Positions 1 to 36,454 of a stretch of DNA of 38,838 nt are shown here, piece after piece. The first letter of the stretch is position 1. Every line of letters starts with the position of its first letter. The position numbers and the translations under genes are program-made. The notes under the pieces were generated by a model. It made no database searches, was not told the DNA's origin, and saw only the letters and a list, made by a program, of their open reading frames with translations. This DNA is from Candidatus Aminicenantota bacterium (lineage in GTDB: Bacteria; Acidobacteriota; Aminicenantia; JAMOAD01), in assembly GCA_027067555.1 (NCBI GenBank), contig JAMOVU010000088.1, positions 1-38,838 of the forward strand. Direction: 5' to 3'.

Positions 1-1225
1 CGCCTATCTCAATATCACCGTATTGAGGATGCTTGTAATGATGCCAGTTAACAAAACCCGCACCATGTAAAATTTCATCATTCCACTTCATCCTCTCTTC
101 CTGAGTAACCTTTCCATCCTTATTAAAATCCTGTTGTGCTCTGTAAAGCTCATTTGTAAAGGAGATTATTCCAAGTGTTCTGTAACTAAAATCATTGAAA
201 CCTCCGAAAACAGGATAAAGGTCTTTCCAGCTTATCATATACCTGTATCCGGGAAGCATTTTCTCTCCCTCTTTCCCGATAAAATCATAAACCTTAACAT
301 CAGCAAAGGGATATCTTCCCATATTGCTTGCACCCGGACCTCTTAAAATCATTCCACCCGAATTGTGAAAATCCTGTGTTGCGGCTATATTTTTATGGGA
401 AATCAAAAATTTTGCTATTGCCATCGTTTCCGAAGGCTGGAACGGATAATCACTTGTTCCATACTGGATAAAGGGAGGCATCCAGTTAAAACCATAAGTC
501 CTGTTCATATCATATCCGCCAATAGGATCTTCGTTAACCTGACCATCCCCATCATTATCTATACCTTCAAGCCCCAATATTATATAATCTCCCTTCTCAC
601 CGGGTTTGACTCTTTCCATTATTCTCGGATCTTTGGGATTAAGCTTTAAATAGCCTGTGCCAAGTTTTACCTTTTTCCTCATCTGAACAATATTTCCGTC
701 TCCGTCAAGATCATCAAAATCATCCTCATCATAAAGACCATCCCTATCATCATCAACTGGTTGTTTATTTGCCCTTGATGTGCTCGGAGTATTGGGTTTG
801 TCCATAAAAAATGCCCTGCCGTCAGGATTTACTATCGGCACTATGTAAAATGCAACCCTATCCACAAGATTTGTAATCTTTTTAATCTTTCCATAATTGG
901 AAAGAAGATAATCCATAATGTAAAGTGTAACCTCGGTGCCCTGAATCTCATTACCGTGAATATCAGCATCAACATACATTGCAGGTTTATCCGAAGCTTT
1001 GCCTGTATCAGGATTGTTTATCGTGACAGCCCAGAGATCTCTTCCCTGATAACTTTTTCCTATGGTTTCTATCTTTACAAACTTCGGATACTTTGCCTTT
1101 ATCTTTTGAAGAGCATTGAAAACCTCTTTATAATTGTAATACCTATCATATCTGAGAATCAGTGAGTAAGAAAGGGAAGCAATAAAAAGCACCAACACGA
1201 ATGCAATTAAAATTCTTTTCCTCAT
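1..1225 (-). CDS. Secreted M14 zinc carboxypeptidase (partial, C-terminus beyond window)
   Basis: Read directly on the minus strand from the ATG at 1225; about 408 residues are present and the gene runs off the left edge. Residues 1-20 form a signal peptide. Zinc-site residues of family M14 are visible: H90-G-N-E93 (HxxE), a second histidine H287 in a DFHNSGG motif, and the catalytic glutamate E359 in FTNEL. An NR motif for substrate carboxylate binding lies in DMNRTYGF. Aspartate-rich loops of calcium-binding type (DDDRDGLYDED, DLDGDGN, DNDGDGQVNED, DFNKDGKV) are inserted in the catalytic domain. The start overlaps the stop of the upstream gene by ATGA, with GGAGGTG just before it, so the two are probably translationally coupled. 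By family it should remove C-terminal residues from peptides outside the cytoplasm; the exact specificity cannot be read. Confidence 0.9.
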   Translation of the reverse strand, partial: MRKRILIAFVLVLFIASLSYSLILRYDRYYNYKEVFNALQKIKAKYPKFVKIETIGKSYQGRDLWAVTINNPDTGKASDKPAMYVDADIHGNEIQGTEVTLYIMDYLLSNYGKIKKITNLVDRVAFYIVPIVNPDGRAFFMDKPNTPSTSRANKQPVDDDRDGLYDEDDFDDLDGDGNIVQMRKKVKLGTGYLKLNPKDPRIMERVKPGEKGDYIILGLEGIDNDGDGQVNEDPIGGYDMNRTYGFNWMPPFIQYGTSDYPFQPSETMAIAKFLISHKNIAATQDFHNSGGMILRGPGASNMGRYPFADVKVYDFIGKEGEKMLPGYRYMISWKDLYPVFGGFNDFSYRTLGIISFTNELYRAQQDFNKDGKVTQEERMKWNDEILHGAGFVNWHHYKHPQYGDIEIG

Positions 1226-3222
1226 TTTACACCTCCGAGGTTAATAATCCTTTCAATATCGGAAATCCTCTTATGGGTAATTCTTATTTTAATCTTTTTG
1301 TTTTTTCCGGGCCAGATTAAATAGCTCACCTCTTTGGAAGAGCCAAGCCCTCCGAGATCGGAAATCCTCACAAGCTTTTTACCCTCAATCAACAATGAAT
1401 CTTTCGGAAGTTCAAGCTTAACAAGTATCGGCATGGAATATTTGTTCCTTCTTCCTATTGCAAGATAAAAGGGAATATAGCCTTCATTAACAATAAAAAA
1501 TTTAACTCTGTAAGCTCCGCTTTTCTCTTTCTTCACGGAAAGTCCTTCAAGCTTCACATCGGGAGTTTTTTTGACAAGTAAGTCAAAAAAGTCATTAACG
1601 AGCTTTGTGTTTTTAACAGCTGTATCAAAAGGCGGGATTTCATCCACAAAAGGAATAATTCCACCGATTTCGACTTCTCCCAACTGAGGATGATTGAATT
1701 TTTGCCATTTAATCACTCCCTTACCCTTAAGCTCTTTTTCTATATAATTTTTAAGTGCTTTGTTTTTGGAATCTCCCTTGGAACCGGCTTTTGATTTGTA
1801 TTTTTCAATAAATGAAGCCATCTTTGCAGGAGTTATCCTTCCACTCTCTATCATCTTTTTAAGCATTTTCACATTAAAGGATGGGGAAGCATTGAATTTT
1901 TTCATAAACTCCTTAAGCTCAGAATCTTTAAGTTTTAAAAACTCCTCTTTGCTCATCTTTTTAAGTTTATCAAGAGTAAGTCCCTTTCCGGATTTTTTCT
2001 CTTCTTTTGGCTCGGGCAAAGACCAGACATCAACACCTATAACAGGAGTGCCTGTGTTAAAATAAAGCCACTTTATTAAAGAGCCATCCTCCTCTCCCTT
2101 TGCCTTTCTTTTAATGTTAATTTTGTCCTTTTTAGCAAGATCTTTGTACTTTTTGGACAATTCTTTATAGTAAGAATAATCTTTGGGATCAATGCTCACA
2201 GGAGGAGCTATTCCTAAAAAGCTTGCAACCATCTGCTCTGTAATTTTCATCCCCCTTCCGATTCCTGCCTCTTTCAGTATTTTTACAAGTTCACTAAGTG
2301 TATATTGTTTTTTAGTATCAATCCCCAAAAATTTACCAAAACTATCGGGAACCTTTACCTTCATATCTCCCAATTTCGCAGTTCTTCCCATTTCCGGAAG
2401 TTTTAGCATATTGTTTGTTCTATCAATAATATAGGCAAGCTCAATATTTTTATGACCTAAGATAAAATCAGCTATGGCTTTTGTTGTTTTTTCTGACACA
2501 GGGAAAAGGCCTGAGCTTTTTCTATAATATTTGAAAAGCGGGGGGAAATTATTGTTTATTATAACTCCGCCCTTTGAGTCTTCATTGTATTTACCATCAC
2601 CATCATTATCAATCCCTTCAATATAATACTTATAAACACCTCTTTCCTCTTTAACTGGATCGGCTTTTTTTAAAACATAGGGGAAACCCTTATCTTCAAT
2701 ATACTTTCCATCAACAGCCTTAACTCTCATTATGGTTATATATCCGTCTCCATTGAGATCTTCAGGTGGGTCCTCATCAATAAGCCCATCTCCATCATCA
2801 TCCTTGGGAGTGTAATTTTTAACCCTCTTTTCAAGAGGCTTTTTAAAGGGTACGGAATAAAGGTCAGGATTAAGGACAGGAACAATATAAAAGCACTTGT
2901 CTTTATAAGCTTTATCGGATGATTTTACCTTATCCAGTACGAACTTTGAGAGCAATAGCGCAGATTCACTTGCAGCAAGATCATATCCTGATATGTTTGC
3001 ACCAACAAATACAGCAGGAGCTTTTTCATTTCCTACAACCAACACATAAATTCTTTTTCCGGAATCAGTTTTTCCAAGAACTTTAAGCTTTGCATAAGGT
3101 GAAGCTGAAATTGTCTTAAAAGATGAAATCAGCTGACCGTATGTCTTATAGCCATTCACGGAAGATTCAACCATAAAAGGAATCAAAAGAATAACCAAGA
3201 ATAAAACAATTGACTTTTTCAT
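1222..3222 (-). CDS. M14-carboxypeptidase-like protein lacking zinc ligands (probable pseudoenzyme)
   Basis: 666 residues from the ATG at 3222; an in-frame GTG at 3228 lies inside the Shine-Dalgarno (GGAGGTG) and is not chosen. A signal peptide covers about residues 1-22. The protein is a paralogue of its downstream neighbour: it shares the FYIVPxxNPD core, the calcium-type loops DDDGDGLIDED and DLNGDGYI (141-162) and DNDGDGKYNED (205-215), and a C-terminal GEVEIGG segment. The HxxE pair is replaced by S78 and D81, the second zinc histidine by about D267, and no glutamate sits where FTNEL would be (the aligned stretch reads VDVWSL). A Lys-rich helical insert lies at about 400-490. It is therefore probably non-catalytic, perhaps a binding or partner subunit of the adjacent enzyme; that role is inference. 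Confidence 0.85.
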   Translation of the reverse strand: MKKSIVLFLVILLIPFMVESSVNGYKTYGQLISSFKTISASPYAKLKVLGKTDSGKRIYVLVVGNEKAPAVFVGANISGYDLAASESALLLSKFVLDKVKSSDKAYKDKCFYIVPVLNPDLYSVPFKKPLEKRVKNYTPKDDDGDGLIDEDPPEDLNGDGYITIMRVKAVDGKYIEDKGFPYVLKKADPVKEERGVYKYYIEGIDNDGDGKYNEDSKGGVIINNNFPPLFKYYRKSSGLFPVSEKTTKAIADFILGHKNIELAYIIDRTNNMLKLPEMGRTAKLGDMKVKVPDSFGKFLGIDTKKQYTLSELVKILKEAGIGRGMKITEQMVASFLGIAPPVSIDPKDYSYYKELSKKYKDLAKKDKINIKRKAKGEEDGSLIKWLYFNTGTPVIGVDVWSLPEPKEEKKSGKGLTLDKLKKMSKEEFLKLKDSELKEFMKKFNASPSFNVKMLKKMIESGRITPAKMASFIEKYKSKAGSKGDSKNKALKNYIEKELKGKGVIKWQKFNHPQLGEVEIGGIIPFVDEIPPFDTAVKNTKLVNDFFDLLVKKTPDVKLEGLSVKKEKSGAYRVKFFIVNEGYIPFYLAIGRRNKYSMPILVKLELPKDSLLIEGKKLVRISDLGGLGSSKEVSYLIWPGKNKKIKIRITHKRISDIERIINLGGVK

Positions 3223-3311
3223 TAACACCTCCGATTAAATTAATACGAAAACAGGACAATTTTGTTCACTAATGGAACAAGAGAATAAAAAATTAATAAA
3301 AAAAAAGAAAA

Positions 3312-5116: not shown

Positions 5117-5281
5117 TTACCAGCGCCTTCCGCCTCTTCTTCTTCCGAACTTACCTATCAAACCAATAATAAGAAATAAAAATCCCAGTGGCCAGATTGA
5201 GCTTTTCCCGTAAATCAAAAGTCCCACTATAAGCCATATTGCTCCAAGCACTAAAAATATGTCATAAATCCTTCTCCTCAT
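5117..5281 (-). CDS. 54-aa membrane protein with Arg-rich tail
   Basis: Reading the minus strand from the ATG at 5281 gives a 54-residue protein ending in TAA at 5117. GGAGG lies 5 nt upstream of the start and a good promoter sits just before that, so it is very likely expressed. It begins MRRRIYDIF, has two hydrophobic segments (about 7-24 and 29-43) joined by YGKSSIWP, and ends in a basic tail (GKFGRRRGGRRW). The positive ends suggest a hairpin with both termini in the cytoplasm. It is the first gene of an operon with the ICMT-like methyltransferase. No known family is recognised. Confidence 0.7.
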   Translation of the reverse strand: MRRRIYDIFLVLGAIWLIVGLLIYGKSSIWPLGFLFLIIGLIGKFGRRRGGRRW

Positions 5282-5296
5282 AAAAACCTCCAGTCA

Positions 5297-5325
5297 AAAG
5301 TAGCAGGTAAAAAATAATCTGTCAA
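5297..5325 (-). promoter_or_regulatory. Sigma70-type promoter for the 54-aa protein/methyltransferase operon
   Basis: On the minus strand TTGACA (5325-5320), a 17-bp spacer and TACTTT (5302-5297). The start codon at 5281 lies 15 nt past the -10 box, leaving room for only a short leader that holds the GGAGG site. Confidence 0.6.
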
Positions 5326-5395
5326 GATCGAGAAGATAATGATAAATTATCCCCCAAGTTTAAAAAAATTATGATATTAAAAAAACTTTAAACTC

Positions 5396-5424
5396 TTGAC
5401 AATAAAATTAACTAATATTATTTT
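5396..5424 (+). promoter_or_regulatory. Sigma70-type promoter for mscL
   Basis: TTGACA at 5396-5401, 17-bp spacer, TATTTT at 5419-5424. It is divergent from the promoter at 5297-5325. The -10 box is imperfect, so the exact box is less certain than the -35. Confidence 0.5.
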
Positions 5425-5460
5425 ATTAACATTAACAATAAAAAAGAAAGGAGGAAAGAA

Positions 5461-5892
5461 GTGTTAAAAGAATTTAAAAAATTTCTTATCAAAGGAAATG
5501 CGGTGGATATGGCGGTAGGTTTTATGTTCGGAGCAGCTTTTGCAAGTATCGTGAAAGCTTTAGTAAATTATATTATAATGCCACCAATCGGATTACTTCT
5601 TGGCAAAGTGGATTTTTCCAATCTTTTCATAGCCCTTGACGGGAAAAAATATGAAAGTATGGCAGCCCTTGATAAGGCAGGTGCCCCCGCTATTAAATAT
5701 GGCCTTTTTATAAATGATTTAATCTCTTTCTTAATCTTGGGCTTTATTATTTTTATGATGGTAAAAATTATAAATTCCCTTCATAAGAAAGAAGAAGTTC
5801 AAGCCGAACCAACTACAAAAAAATGTCCGGAATGTGCAATGGAGATTCCAATAGAGGCAAAAATATGTCCTTATTGTAATGTAAAATTGTAA
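5461..5892 (+). CDS. mscL: Large-conductance mechanosensitive channel MscL with C-terminal zinc ribbon
   Basis: 143 residues from a GTG start with GGAGG 6 nt upstream. The N-terminus (LKEFKKFLIKGNAVDMAVGF) is the amphipathic S1 helix and pore helix start typical of MscL; the second membrane helix is about residues 84-104 (LISFLILGFIIFMMVKIIN). MscL is a homopentameric inner-membrane channel that opens under membrane tension and releases solutes on osmotic downshock. The C-terminal tail carries CPEC-x10-CPYC (about 121-138), a zinc-ribbon pattern in place of the usual short cytoplasmic helix. Similar tails occur in some other bacterial MscL proteins; their role is not established. The gene stands alone with its own promoter. 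Confidence 0.95.
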   Translation: MLKEFKKFLIKGNAVDMAVGFMFGAAFASIVKALVNYIIMPPIGLLLGKVDFSNLFIALDGKKYESMAALDKAGAPAIKYGLFINDLISFLILGFIIFMMVKIINSLHKKEEVQAEPTTKKCPECAMEIPIEAKICPYCNVKL

Positions 5893-5931
5893 TTTTCGTT
5901 TATTTTGAAAAAACCATTGTTTTAATTTTTA

Positions 5932-6167
5932 GTGAAAAGAGACAAAAATAATATATCTTATTATCATTTTGATTCTTTTTTTCTTATTTTCAATGCACCT
6001 GAGAGCAAAGGCAACAGAAAGAAAAATCCGAGAAAGAAATCGTTAAGACAACATCCAAAGATTTCAGAAGAGATTGGGAAAGCAGCAAAAAGCAGCCCCC
6101 CTATGTCAACCGAACATCAGAAGAGCATGTATGGAACTTTCCCCTACTGTTCTTTGTCATCCTTTGA
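5932..6167 (+). pseudogene. Possible decayed small membrane-anchored protein gene
   Basis: The 250 bp after mscL contain no convincing intact gene. One forward frame reads a strongly hydrophobic stretch followed by MHLRAKATERKIRE and then stops. A second frame continues from about 6035 as EKEIVKTTSKDFRRDWES and runs in a protein-like way to a stop at 6165-6167. Joined by one frameshift they give an anchored, charged peptide of about 75 residues. A GTG at 5932 could have been the start but would need another shift, and no good ribosome site is visible. Its end overlaps the end of the minus-strand gene at 6144-6443. This is a weak call based on peptide appearance only. Confidence 0.3.
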
Positions 6168-6443
6168 AAAAATATCCTTTATAATCACATACAATGGCAG
6201 TAAAATAAAGAAAACAAGAGGATAAACAATGATGTAAAGAAATATTACATAGGTCGCATAACCGGCAAAAATAGAAAAGGGAATGCTTAGCAAGAGCCAG
6301 GATATTACTTTAATAGGATTAGAATACTTTAAGGCTTCATCTATGAAAATTATGTAATAAATAGCACTGAGAATTGTTATTGGTATGTAAAATTCCCCAT
6401 ACTTTTCGAATTTTTCATTAAGGTCATCCAAAAGCTTTTTCAT
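6144..6443 (-). CDS. Small integral membrane protein, function unknown
   Basis: 99 residues from an ATG at 6443 preceded by AAGGAAGAGGG. A charged N-terminus (MKKLLDDLNEKFEKYGEF) is followed by three likely membrane segments (about 19-34, 45-62, 67-88) and an acidic/lysine tail (FSKDDKEQ). It lies 58 bp downstream of the secreted repeat protein gene on the same strand, so the two may form an operon. No family is recognised. Composition matches the rest of the window. Confidence 0.6.
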   Translation of the reverse strand: MKKLLDDLNEKFEKYGEFYIPITILSAIYYIIFIDEALKYSNPIKVISWLLLSIPFSIFAGYATYVIFLYIIVYPLVFFILLPLYVIIKDIFSKDDKEQ

Positions 6444-6501
6444 CCCTCTTCCTTTTTAAGGTATAGACATATACAGCTTTGGCAACTGCCCGGTTTCCCG
6501 C

Positions 6502-7008
6502 TTACCAATCCCACAAATCATCATCCTCATCTTCGCTCTCTTTGAGAAAAAGGCCAGAGTCCTCCATTCGGAAATCAGAGATAAAATCATTCTCAAGGGG
6601 CTTTTTGATAAGGGTTTTTGGATTTAAAGTTGGAAGATAAAGGTAAGGGTTTGAGGATAAATAGCCTATTTTAATCCCAAGACTGTTTTTAATAACCGGA
6701 GGGTTAAAAGAAAATGGGTCCCAGGGAGAAGAGAGGGAAAACTCTGAGCCATACGCTCCAAAAGTATTCCAGATGCTATCAGGTGAGAATTTATCACCGT
6801 ATTTTCCGAAGGGGTTGTAAATGGAGTTCGGGTCAAAGTGTGAGCAATTAAGACATCCCAGATACTTACCCGAAAAAGAATCATAAATCAGAAGAGGCTC
6901 ATATTGGCTTTTCTCTTTAAAAAATAGATAATCATCTCCCGAATACAAAAAACAGGATAAAGCAATAACCCCCATGATTAAAGCAAAAACAATCGCTCTT
7001 TTAAACAT
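6502..7008 (-). CDS. Secreted protein with 16-residue FxPxSIWNxFGxYG repeats
   Basis: 168 residues; the ATG at 7008 follows a near-perfect AAGGAGGTG site. Residues 1-24 form a signal peptide (the ALSC at 16-19 is only a poor lipobox). A GCLNC motif (C52, C55) leads into 16-residue units at about 58-73 and 74-89, with a degenerate third from 90, each of the form F-x-P/S-x-SI-Y/W-N-x-FG-x-YG. Similar CxNC plus SIWN repeats occur in small uncharacterised proteins of many bacteria. The C-terminal end is acidic (ESEDEDDDLWDW). The function is unknown; an extracytoplasmic location is inferred from the signal peptide. Confidence 0.7.
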   Translation of the reverse strand: MFKRAIVFALIMGVIALSCFLYSGDDYLFFKEKSQYEPLLIYDSFSGKYLGCLNCSHFDPNSIYNPFGKYGDKFSPDSIWNTFGAYGSEFSLSSPWDPFSFNPPVIKNSLGIKIGYLSSNPYLYLPTLNPKTLIKKPLENDFISDFRMEDSGLFLKESEDEDDDLWDW

Positions 7009-16575: not shown

Positions 16576-19500
16576 ATGAGAAAAAAACTTTTTATTCTTA
16601 TCCTTGTGTTCGGTTTAATTTCCTTTGGTTTTGCTCTGAAGGATTCACGTCTTTTAAGATTCCCCGATATCAATGGGAATCAAATTGCGTTTGTGTATGC
16701 GGGAGACATATGGACAGTATCCGCAAATGGTGGAGATGCAAAGAGGCTCACCTCTCACATCGGTCTGGAACTATTTCCGAAAATTTCACCCGATGGAAAG
16801 TGGATAGCATTTTCAGCAGAATATTCAGGCTCAAGACAGGTTTACATTATGCCATCAGAAGGTGGAGTTCCCAAACAGCTTACCTATTACAATGATGTCG
16901 GAGAGATGCCTCCGAGAGGAGGATGGGATTATGCTGTTCTGGATTGGACTCCCGACAGTAAAAAGATTCTGGTAAGAGCCAACAGAACACCTTATGGAAA
17001 GAGAATGGGAAAATATTACCTGGTTCCCATTGACGGAGGGCTTGAGACTCCCCTTGAAATTCCGGAAGCAGGTTTCGGAAAATTTTCTCCGGATGCAACA
17101 AAAATAGTTTACACTCCCATATCAAGGGAATTCAGAACATGGAAGAGAACAAAGGGAGGAAGAGCTCAGGATGTATGGATTTATGATCTTGTAAAACACA
17201 GCTCAAAAAGGCTCACAAAATTTCCCGGAACCGACCAGCATCCTATCTGGTATAAAGATAAAATATACTTTGTATCTGACAGAGGACCAAATGCAAGATT
17301 GAATTTTTATTCTTATGATTTAAAAACAGGAAAAATAACTCAAATTACCCATCACAAAGAGTATGATGTGCTCTGGCCATCGGGTAGAAATGGAGTTGTC
17401 GTGTATGAAAACGGAGGATACATATACAAACTTAATCTTGATACGGGGAAAACACAAAAACTTACTGTGAATATTGAGTTTGATAATCCGAACAGACTTC
17501 CCTATTTTAAAAATGTGGTTAAATACATTTCAAGATTTGGCTATGATATCTCACCTTCCGGCAAAAGAGCTGTATTTGATGCAAGAGGGGATATTTTCAC
17601 TGTTCCTGCCAAAAAGGGAATAACATACAATCTTACAGAATCTCAGGGAGTAAAAGATTCATATCCCGCATGGTCTCCCGATGGAAAATGGATTCTCTAT
17701 TATTCTGATAGAACCGATGAGTATGAAATCTATCTTACTGACCCAAAAGGTAAAAAGACAATCCAGCTTACGAAAAACAGCCATACATGGAGATTTCCTG
17801 CTGTATGGTCACCTGACAGTAAAAAGATTCTTTTTTCCGATAAAAACCAGCTTTTGCAAATCCTTGATATAAAAACAAAAAAAATCACAGTGGTTGATAA
17901 AGCAAGACTGTTTGATATAACAGACTACGACTGGTCACCTGATTCACAATGGGTTATTTACACAAAGGATGCTTCAAACGGACTTGATGCAATCTGGGTG
18001 TACTCCTTAAAAGATAAGAAAAAATATCAGCTTACGGATAATGAATTTAATAATTTTGGCGGTGTATTCTCAAAGGATGGAAAATATATCTACTTTCTTT
18101 CTATGAGAACATTCAATATGAATTTCTCAAGCTATGAGTTTGATTTTGTTTACAATAAAGCCACGAAGATTTATGCAATGGCATTAACAAAGGATGCACC
18201 AAAGCTTTTTAAAGATGAAAATGATGAAGAACCTATAAAAACCGAAGAACCCAAAGTTAAGTCAAAAAAGAAGAAAAGTTCCAAAAAGGAAGCTAAAAAA
18301 CAGGTTATTGTAAAAATTGACTTTAAAGGAATTAATGACCGAGTTGTCGCCTTTCCTATAAAAGCCGGCGATTACAGAGGGATAGCTACAATAGAGGGAG
18401 GAATTCTCTACTATAAGGACAGAGGACTTTACAAGTTTGACATCAAAAAGAAAAAGAGTGAGTTAATAATCAAAGGAGTCTCAGGTATTAAAATTTCAGC
18501 AAACGGTAAAAAACTTCTTTACAGATCTGGAATAAAATACGGAATCATTCCAATCTCACCAAAGCACAAAGTGGGAGACGGACTTTTAAATATGAAAGAT
18601 GTTACAATGAAAATTGACCCTGTCAAAGAATGGAATGAAATTTACAGAGACGGATGGCGCCTTTACAGAGATTGGTTCTATGTTAAAAATATGCACGGAG
18701 TTGATTGGAAGGGAATGTATGAAAAGTACAAAAAGCTCCTGCCATACCTTGGACACAGAGCTGATCTTGATTACATTTTCGGAGAGCTAATAGGTGAACT
18801 TAATGTTGGACACTGCTATGTGCACTGGGGAGATTTCCCGAGAGTAAAGAGAGTGGATACGGGACTCATAGGTGCCGAGCTTGTGGCAGATAAAAAAGCC
18901 GGAAGGTATAAAATCGCAAAAATTTTTAAAGGTGAGAACTGGAAAGAAGCTACAAGATCACCATTAACTGAACAGGGGATAAATGTTAAAGAGGGAGATT
19001 ATATAATCAAGATAAACAATCATGAGGTAACTCTAAAAGATAACCCTTACAAATTTCTTGAAAATACTGTGGGAAAACTAATTCCGATAACTGTAAATTC
19101 AAAACCGACAGTAGAGGGAGCAAAAACTTATTTAATCAGACCCATAAAAAGCGAACTTGCTTTAAGACATCTTGATTGGGTAAATTCAAGAAAAGCACTT
19201 GTTGAAAAACTTTCGGGAGGAAGAATTGGATATGTATATGTTCCTGATACTGCTGTTGCAGGAAACAGAGAGCTTTTCAAAGGATTTTATGCAAACAGAG
19301 ATAAAGAAGCCCTTATTGTTGATGAAAGATACAATGGAGGAGGATGGAGCCCCGGTAAGATGATAGAGCTTCTTTCAAGAAAGAGAGTGAGCTATTGGAG
19401 AAGAAGAGGGCTTGAATTGAGACCCGAACCATTTTATGCAATCGATGGTCCTAAAGTTATGCTTATAAATCATTACTCCAGCTCAGGTGGAGACAATTTC

Positions 19501-19848
19501 CCTTATTGGTTTAGAAAGGCAAAATTAGGAATCATTATAGGTACAAGATCATGGGGAGGACTTGTCGGATACGGATGGAGCCCTTCACTTGCAGACGGAG
19601 GAAGTTTTGCCATACCTTCATCGGGAATTGTCGGAACAAATGGAAAATACATAGTGGAAGGAGTCGGAATTTATCCTGACATTGAGGTTGAGGACAGACC
19701 CGAACTTGTTGCTAAAGGACATGACCCATCTCTTGAAAGAGCTATTAAATATCTTTTGGAGCAGTTGAAAAAACATCCTCCGAAAAAAACTCCGAAAAAT
19801 CCGCCTGATCCCGACAGATCAAAATGGTATGAAGGAGAAATCAAGTAA
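16576..19848 (+). CDS. tri: Tricorn-type S41 protease, secreted
   Basis: 1090 residues, ATG at 16576 with AAAGGAG upstream, signal peptide 1-20. N-terminal half: two beta-propeller regions with repeated FSPDGKWIA/WSPDSKKIL blades (about 30-310 and 315-540), then a Lys/Glu-rich linker (553-577). The C-terminal half carries a helical cap, a PDZ-like domain (about 775-850) and an S41 protease core. Active-site residues at family positions: H746 in NVGHCYV, the nucleophile within the HYSSSGGD stretch (966-973), and E1028 in VEGVG. Position 745, a serine in the archaeal enzyme, is glycine here. Tricorn trims peptides into small fragments; a secreted form suits extracellular or periplasmic peptide use. 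It ends in a strong terminator. Confidence 0.9.
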   Translation: MRKKLFILILVFGLISFGFALKDSRLLRFPDINGNQIAFVYAGDIWTVSANGGDAKRLTSHIGLELFPKISPDGKWIAFSAEYSGSRQVYIMPSEGGVPKQLTYYNDVGEMPPRGGWDYAVLDWTPDSKKILVRANRTPYGKRMGKYYLVPIDGGLETPLEIPEAGFGKFSPDATKIVYTPISREFRTWKRTKGGRAQDVWIYDLVKHSSKRLTKFPGTDQHPIWYKDKIYFVSDRGPNARLNFYSYDLKTGKITQITHHKEYDVLWPSGRNGVVVYENGGYIYKLNLDTGKTQKLTVNIEFDNPNRLPYFKNVVKYISRFGYDISPSGKRAVFDARGDIFTVPAKKGITYNLTESQGVKDSYPAWSPDGKWILYYSDRTDEYEIYLTDPKGKKTIQLTKNSHTWRFPAVWSPDSKKILFSDKNQLLQILDIKTKKITVVDKARLFDITDYDWSPDSQWVIYTKDASNGLDAIWVYSLKDKKKYQLTDNEFNNFGGVFSKDGKYIYFLSMRTFNMNFSSYEFDFVYNKATKIYAMALTKDAPKLFKDENDEEPIKTEEPKVKSKKKKSSKKEAKKQVIVKIDFKGINDRVVAFPIKAGDYRGIATIEGGILYYKDRGLYKFDIKKKKSELIIKGVSGIKISANGKKLLYRSGIKYGIIPISPKHKVGDGLLNMKDVTMKIDPVKEWNEIYRDGWRLYRDWFYVKNMHGVDWKGMYEKYKKLLPYLGHRADLDYIFGELIGELNVGHCYVHWGDFPRVKRVDTGLIGAELVADKKAGRYKIAKIFKGENWKEATRSPLTEQGINVKEGDYIIKINNHEVTLKDNPYKFLENTVGKLIPITVNSKPTVEGAKTYLIRPIKSELALRHLDWVNSRKALVEKLSGGRIGYVYVPDTAVAGNRELFKGFYANRDKEALIVDERYNGGGWSPGKMIELLSRKRVSYWRRRGLELRPEPFYAIDGPKVMLINHYSSSGGDNFPYWFRKAKLGIIIGTRSWGGLVGYGWSPSLADGGSFAIPSSGIVGTNGKYIVEGVGIYPDIEVEDRPELVAKGHDPSLERAIKYLLEQLKKHPPKKTPKNPPDPDRSKWYEGEIK

Positions 19849-34930: not shown

Positions 34931-36454
34931 CTATTTTTTCATTAAAAGTATCTCTTCCGCTTTTTTAAATTGGGGATCATCCTTAAGAATAGAGATAAAG
35001 CTTTCTTCCATACCCCAGACTCTTGAGACTATCTCTCTTCTTATTTGAAGATTTATAGAAGAAAGACTCTTTGTAAAATCACTATCTTTAAATTTTATTT
35101 TTTTACTTCTAAGAAAAGATTTAAAATCTTGGGTTATTCTTGCAGGGATAGGATCCGTATAAAGATTTATTTTTTGACCATCAAATATACAGATAGGTGC
35201 TTTTTTCTCAAACATTATCTTTCCCTTTAAACCTGTCTCTCCCTTTACAAGGTGATTTGCATAGGAGAAAAAAAGACCTTTGCTTCTTAATTTTGCTGTA
35301 AACATTGTAAGTTTTCCATCTTCAACCTTAACATCCGGAACTATCCCCCCTGTATTTTTTTCATAACTATCCTTATCATTATAAAACAAAAGATAATCTT
35401 CAAGGTGGGTATAATCTCTTTGAATCATTTTGCCTGAAGGAGTGTAATATCTTGCAGTAGTAAGAGCAATCGCAACATTACTTCTAATATGATAAAGCGT
35501 CTGCACCAGCCCTTTTCCCCATGTTCTCGTACCCACTATTATTCCCCTTTTATTATCCTGAATGGCTCCAGCAACTATCTCCGAAGCTGAAGCACTTCCT
35601 CTATTAACAAGCACGACAAGTGGAAGATTCTCATATTGTTCATTTCTCATCGCATAAAAAACTTTGTTCATTCTTTCAACTCTACCCTTAATAGAAACAA
35701 TAACCTTGCCTTTTTCAAGAAACTCATCTGAAATATTTAAAGCAGCTCTAAAATCCCCTCCTCCATTGTATCGCAAATCGAGAATTAATGATTTTATTCC
35801 TTTTTTAACAAGATTTTTAATAGCTTCTTCAAACTCTTTACTTGTTGTCCCTGTAAAAGATCTAATTACAATCATACCTATTCTTCCATTAGAAAATGGA
35901 TCAACAAAGTGATAAGGAATGGAATAAAGAGGAATTTCAGCTCTCTTTATTCTGAAATGCAAAAGTTTTTTAAAACCTTCTCTTTTTATTTTAATATTAA
36001 CATAAGTTCCCTTAGGACCTCTCAAAAGTCTTACAGCTTCATACTGAGTAAGATTCTTTGTTTGCTTACCTTCAACTTCTACAATAACATCACCAGCCTG
36101 GATTCCCAATCTATAAGCAGGAGTCCCTTCAAGTGGTGTTATAACTGTTAATCTATCCTCTATTTTTAAAATCTGAATCCCTATCCCATAGAACTTTCCG
36201 CTCTGATCTTCCTGCATAGTTTGAAAAGAATCAGGATCAAGAAGATATGAATGGGGATCAAGAGAGGAAAGCATCCCTCTTATAGCCGCATATGTTATTT
36301 TTTCTTCATTAATATTTTGCTTATAATAAAGCTTTTTTAGAAGTAGCAAAGTTTTCGTATATTTATAAAGCTGGCTTTTCCACGGAGTAAGAGATGAAGC
36401 GGTAATAAAAACTATGCTAAGCAAAATAATTACTAATATTTTCGATTTTTTCAC
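34931..36454 (-). CDS. ctpA: CtpA-type S41 C-terminal processing peptidase
   Basis: 507 residues from a GTG; the stop of the upstream aminotransferase gene shares one base with it. An N-terminal signal/anchor (5-22) is followed by a PDZ domain (about 88-170, GIGIQI and AGDVIVEVEG), then the S41 core with ILDLRYNGGGDF (224-235), the catalytic serine in NRGSASASEI (284-293) and the catalytic lysine K314 in TWGKG. A C-terminal domain of about 150 residues follows. Such peptidases act in the periplasm on C-termini of envelope proteins or on unfolded proteins. The pairing with an aminotransferase seems incidental. Confidence 0.93.
   Translation of the reverse strand: MKKSKILVIILLSIVFITASSLTPWKSQLYKYTKTLLLLKKLYYKQNINEEKITYAAIRGMLSSLDPHSYLLDPDSFQTMQEDQSGKFYGIGIQILKIEDRLTVITPLEGTPAYRLGIQAGDVIVEVEGKQTKNLTQYEAVRLLRGPKGTYVNIKIKREGFKKLLHFRIKRAEIPLYSIPYHFVDPFSNGRIGMIVIRSFTGTTSKEFEEAIKNLVKKGIKSLILDLRYNGGGDFRAALNISDEFLEKGKVIVSIKGRVERMNKVFYAMRNEQYENLPLVVLVNRGSASASEIVAGAIQDNKRGIIVGTRTWGKGLVQTLYHIRSNVAIALTTARYYTPSGKMIQRDYTHLEDYLLFYNDKDSYEKNTGGIVPDVKVEDGKLTMFTAKLRSKGLFFSYANHLVKGETGLKGKIMFEKKAPICIFDGQKINLYTDPIPARITQDFKSFLRSKKIKFKDSDFTKSLSSINLQIRREIVSRVWGMEESFISILKDDPQFKKAEEILLMKK

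Follow-up and report, generated by a model that had tools for sequence, protein, structure and literature searches.

Catalysis by M14 metallopeptidases requires the activation of a zinc-bound water. The M14 pseudopeptidases listed in a 2024 review, AEBP1, CPXM1, CPXM2, domain III of carboxypeptidase D (CPD-III) and yeast Ecm14, are all eukaryotic, from animals or yeast (PMC11266112). CPD-III is an inactive M14 domain that lies beside active ones and is thought to bind proteins or to present substrates (PMC11266112). Pseudoenzymes that work with active relatives are well known within this animal carboxypeptidase D and in family M16, the bacterial M16B pairs being encoded by a two-gene operon (PMC11266112, PMC9291397). 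No report of a bacterial M14 enzyme/pseudoenzyme pair was found in the literature searched, which covers subscription journals thinly. Here we explore a bacterial M14 gene pair that provides a simple two-gene system for testing the service a dead carboxypeptidase may render to a live one. The pair is found phylum-wide and has one early origin, by which it offers many natural variants, as well as a matched control in the form of an intact tandem pair.

The window, i.e. the whole stretch of DNA that was analysed, is the complete 38,838-nucleotide contig JAMOVU010000088.1 of a Candidatus Aminicenantota bacterium. At its start lie two adjoining genes, hereafter P and A, both on the minus strand, with the following layout.

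1222-3222, minus strand: P, zinc-less M14 homologue, 666 aa from its ATG (Peptidase_M14 match and A-profile match)
1-1225, minus strand: A, M14 zinc carboxypeptidase homologue (Pfam match; carboxypeptidase T as best PDB match)
1222-1225, minus strand: ATGA, in which the stop of P overlaps the start of A (read from the sequence; identical 4-base overlap in relatives)
1230-1236, minus strand: GGAGGTG ribosome site of A, within the final codons of P, which encode ...GGV (GGAGG there in most pairs with the 4-base overlap)
3226-3232, minus strand: GGAGGTG ribosome site for P, upstream of the ATG at 3222 (read from the sequence)

The 3' end of P reads ...GGA GGT GTA AAA TGA. An open reading frame for P can also be drawn from a GTG (1222-3228), which falls within P's own GGAGGTG ribosome site. 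The contig end cuts A, of which 408 aa are visible; the protein has 563-564 aa in genomes of the same genus or family (full length in L037, L038 and L039). P comprises a predicted signal peptide, an M14-like domain, two P-specific inserts and a C-terminal domain common to A. The catalytic domain of A begins directly after the signal peptide, without a propeptide, and aligns to mature carboxypeptidase T from residue 28. By a simple hydropathy test the N-terminus is hydrophobic in 48 of 50 P sequences and in all 50 A sequences, and both proteins are probably exported.

Both proteins score above the Pfam cut-off for Peptidase_M14 (21.6 bits), A with 159.7 and P with 34.7 bits, and they are 31% identical (E 9e-29). 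The P-family and A-family profiles match across 536 columns, including the C-terminal domain, with a probability of 100%. A search with the P profile retrieved M14 structures at E 1e-19, and the top PDB match of A is carboxypeptidase T at E 5e-22. Structure predictions from four-row alignments (window and L077) gave pLDDT values of 41.0 for P and 35.6 for A; a PDB fold search with this low-confidence P model yielded no match at E <=0.001.

The active sites were compared in 60 P and 56 A sequences, of which 58 and 55, respectively, are readable at the HxxE site.

947-958, minus strand: A zinc ligands 1 and 2, HGNE (H90, E93; H and E in 55 of 55 readable A)
365-367, minus strand: A zinc ligand 3, H287 (56 of 56 A)
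149-151, minus strand: A catalytic glutamate E359, equivalent to Glu270 of carboxypeptidase A (56 of 56 A)
500-505, minus strand: A Asn241-Arg242, equivalent to the carboxylate-binding Asn144/Arg145 (56 of 56 A)
2980-2991, minus strand: former HxxE of P, now SGYD (S78 and D81, numbered from the ATG; HxxE in 0 of 58 readable P)
2422-2424, minus strand: former third ligand of P, now Asp (D269, versus H287 of A; Gly in 40, Ser in 16 and Asp in 4 of 60 P, His in none)
2029-2031, minus strand: former catalytic glutamate of P, now Asp (D400, versus E359 of A; Asp in 42, Pro in 15, Asn in 2 and Arg in 1 of 60 P, Glu in none)

A is complete for all carboxypeptidase A positions, since the counterpart of Tyr248 is Y337, 22 residues before the catalytic Glu and Tyr in 55 of 56 A, and R151 probably corresponds to Arg127. 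Y348 had been considered for Tyr248 and was dropped, as counting 22 residues back from the catalytic Glu leads to Y337. As judged by these residues A is most likely a zinc carboxypeptidase with a complete active site, and it is predicted to be active.

In the window P the columns for the zinc ligands, catalytic Glu, Asn144/Arg145, Tyr248 and the probable Arg127 hold S, D, D, D, N-N, K and V, such that the counterparts of Tyr248, Arg145 and probably Arg127 are missing as well. Across the readable P the former HxxE site holds ExxH (25), ExxV (11), SxxD (3) or other combinations. The first-pass annotation had described a tandem of an M14 peptidase and a zinc-less paralogue from which the HxxE pair, the third ligand and the catalytic glutamate had been lost, and this description holds for the ligands, with a residue numbering that is right from the ATG (S80 and D83 in the GTG-start frame) and D269 as the former third ligand. 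The Glu has indeed gone too, but its replacement by Asp leaves a carboxylate at the catalytic position. This Asp would find no zinc-bound water to activate, because not a single zinc ligand remains. That zinc ligands might be recovered elsewhere in P was also considered: the alignment restored none in any P, and a regained HxxE was rejected, since HxxE strings appear at shifting positions and the window P has none. P hence is M14 by homology, has neither zinc ligands nor catalytic Glu, and fits the description of an M14 pseudopeptidase, a homologue under selection that has lost its active site and is predicted to be inactive.

Among known proteins CPD-III is nearest in kind to P: nearly all its active-site residues are replaced and it lies beside active M14 domains (PMC11266112). 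However, the CPD domains belong to one membrane protein and His69 is kept, whereas P and A are encoded by two bacterial genes and P has lost all three zinc ligands and carries calcium-type loops and inserts. AEBP1/ACLP, CPXM1, CPXM2 and Ecm14 resemble P in being conserved, extracellular proteins that have the M14 fold without activity, but they are eukaryotic and keep most zinc ligands (Table 2 of PMC11266112), and pairing with a neighbouring active gene is not described for them in that review. The alpha/beta subunits of the mitochondrial processing peptidase and the bacterial M16B pairs show the same combination of an active zinc subunit with a homologous subunit that lacks the zinc motif (PMC11266112, PMC9291397), and the bacterial pairs function in the manner proposed for P and A. 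Their fold, the HxxEH clam shell, is unrelated, P and A having M14 homology and neither the M16 fold nor its HxxEH motif, and the heterodimer is proven for M16 where it is presumed for P and A. Carboxypeptidase T (Thermoactinomyces, M14A) is the closest solved relative of A, which differs from it in its acidic loop inserts, its additional C-terminal domain and the absence of a propeptide; a pseudo-partner of carboxypeptidase T is not reported in the literature surveyed.

Outside the active site P has both retained and acquired elements.

2725-2802, minus strand: first acidic loop of P, calcium type, DDDGDGxxDED..DLNGDG (core acidic residues >90% conserved in P and A)
2566-2619, minus strand: second acidic loop of P, EGIDNDGDGxxNED (core residues >90% conserved in P and A)
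677-754, minus strand: first acidic loop of A (conserved in P and A)
515-568, minus strand: second acidic loop of A (conserved in P and A)
2194-2388, minus strand: P-specific insert that separates the former ligand 3 from the former catalytic Glu (spacing 71-72 aa in all A sequences, with a median of 131 aa in P)
1804-2019, minus strand: P-specific helical module (also present in Vps10/sortilin-type propellers)

Core motifs and calcium-type loops common to both proteins had been remarked on earlier, and the loop cores are conserved in both. These acidic DxDxDG loops may bind calcium; calcium is predicted in both proteins, and zinc in A. The two inserts flank the former catalytic Glu and vary among P clades; the stretch that follows the catalytic Glu measures 51 in A versus 108 in P. 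The helical module, about 65 aa long (about P residues 404-475), is homologous to an insert of Vps10/sortilin-type beta-propeller proteins (L075, L076, L078; G000:C104:7830-10523). Conservation analysis further identified invariant P-specific residues.

The pair recurs across the phylum Acidobacteriota, the window itself being from the Aminicenantes. P matches were obtained in 43 of the 60 nearest genomes, a few consisting of the insert module alone. Full-length P is present in 37 of these 60 Aminicenantes relatives, full-length A in those same 37 and either alone in none, as counted from tables that include some split copies and some truncated at the end of a contig. Close relatives in which A is kept have P as well. 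A scan of genome contigs named only one whole-protein relative, Candidatus Aminicenantes JAMOUT010000034. In an Acidobacteriota sample of 396 genomes, with scoring limited to the best two or three candidates of each genome, P and/or A occur in 57, and both genes in 54 of these. In two of the rest a fragment of the partner lies alongside (G075 and G142), and in one the contig ends inside P (G132). Neither a lone P nor a lone A was demonstrated in the sampled genomes. The order P-A is fixed, and the flanking genes vary on both sides. One locus (L049 in G052, 5194-6984) has a third tandem gene, with one P followed by two complete A copies. A distant M14 gene on a haloarchaeal plasmid has no annotated M14 neighbour.

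As a control, another tandem M14 pair was considered (L079-L084, six genomes, about 710 and 630 aa), both members of which keep all ligands. Degeneracy is therefore specific to P, and a tandem layout alone does not cause decay. Three single M14 genes (L103, L109 and L118) keep HxxE, but their third zinc His is replaced by Asp and their Asn144 by His, possibly an altered metal site. Individual members of the pair are disrupted in two genomes, P by two TAG stops in L092 (G078) and A by a split across two reading frames in L063 (G009), either of which may reflect decay or an assembly error.

In a tree of 132 proteins, made by a quick method with no mixture model, P and A separate into a single clade each, both with support 100, which indicates that the loss in P happened once and early. 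Where dN/dS was computable, it lies at 0.06-0.17 in P and at 0.03-0.11 in A. Purifying selection acts on P, and P evolves about 1.35 times faster than A. The 31% similarity, the one-clade trees and the purifying selection taken together rule out chance. P and A tree distances correlate with r 0.90, a figure inflated in part by species history, versus <=0.16 in 2000 permutations. The two trees have 30 of 50 splits in common, including cross-family groupings. Since several of these common splits join families of different classes (e.g. L050 with L087/L088; L098 with L066/L068/L069), they suggest that the pair was transferred as a unit. That a kept pseudoenzyme is tied to its active relative, as proposed in the first-pass annotation, is strongly supported by the fixed order, joint inheritance, apparent joint transfer and purifying selection, with no lone member shown in the sampled genomes. 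The further suggestion made there, of a heterodimer or of P as an adaptor or substrate-binding subunit, is compatible with these observations and may be right.

The ATGA overlap is real in the sequence, and together with the ribosome site inside P it fits the idea that both proteins are made in step. As a general rule this goes too far, as only about half of the pairs have these elements. A script found the 4-base overlap in 32 of 56 pairs; about 29 were left after reading, most with GGAGG inside P, L068, L069 and L070 having been dropped since a downstream ATG is the more probable start. In the remaining pairs the genes are a short distance of about 2-36 bases apart, or the script left the start ambiguous. 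Because about half of the pairs are without the 4-base overlap, coupling is common, not universal.

Since the pair is kept together, in the same order, across the phylum, the dead copy P very probably works as a partner of the live A. The reading we consider probable, based on sequence comparison, is that of an exported carboxypeptidase A with a zinc-less partner P that binds A and/or presents its substrate. P and A would be two parts of one exported peptidase unit. P would be an ancient paralogue, without zinc or catalysis, in which the loops that form the fold, those of calcium type and the C-terminal domain have persisted and to which two inserts were added. Its translation would come first and be followed at once by that of A, in many lineages through re-initiation at ATGA with the ribosome site inside P. 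P would then act with A, most likely as a bound pseudo-subunit in physical contact with it, holding or presenting substrate. Against this partnership it can be argued that co-inheritance of linked genes does not prove contact; the faster evolution of P, the missing overlap in about half of the pairs and the inserts that differ between P clades also count against it. A stricter form, which we propose only tentatively, is an obligate two-subunit carboxypeptidase, of which no description was found for family M14. The emptied pocket of P would be dedicated to receiving peptide C-termini, or would act as a rebuilt metal site in the ExxH clades, and would feed or restrict the active subunit A.

P could instead be a separate exported protein that binds peptides or polymers and shares with A a nutrient or cell-wall task without binding A itself. 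The carboxylate-binding Asn-Arg pair is kept in about half of P (Asn in 31, Arg in 28 of 60), and the ends of peptides may thus still be bound in the empty pocket, although the Arg is lost in the clade of the window. The helical module that P has in common with Vps10-type propellers, a peptide-receptor-like fold, points the same way, as does the Vps10-type gene that adjoins the pair in nine loci (L040-L043, L045, L047, L048, L068 and L069), and animal M14 pseudopeptidases are known to bind collagen (PMC11266112). Strict pairing, fixed order and joint inheritance, however, exceed what a common task needs, which makes independent binding rather unlikely.

It is less likely still that P is a folding helper or inhibitor of A that replaces the propeptide of other secreted M14 enzymes. 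P is always upstream and translated first and A has no propeptide, consistent with such a role, but P is longer than A and with its complete M14-like and C-terminal domains far exceeds a propeptide. No M14 homologue is known to us in such a role.

That the swapped ExxH and the P-specific His of NFPH make up a rebuilt metal site, or serve some new chemistry, is improbable. ExxH is present in 25 of 58 P, and the His after NFP, which A lacks, occurs in 90% of P, yet the arrangement is not conserved in P: others have ExxV, the window P has S and D and lacks the His at NFP, and the old site has no third ligand. Chance survival of P as a decaying duplicate, for which its faster evolution and the broken copy in G078 might plead, is rejected as extremely improbable by the selection and retention tests: dN/dS lies far under 1, the origin is single and old, the gene is retained throughout the phylum and P-specific residues are invariant.

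Elsewhere in the window a Tricorn-type protease and an S41 PDZ peptidase are encoded (16576-19848 and 34931-36454), in line with a proteolytic lifestyle, as is an MscL channel whose C-terminus matches zinc-ribbon families (5461-5892).
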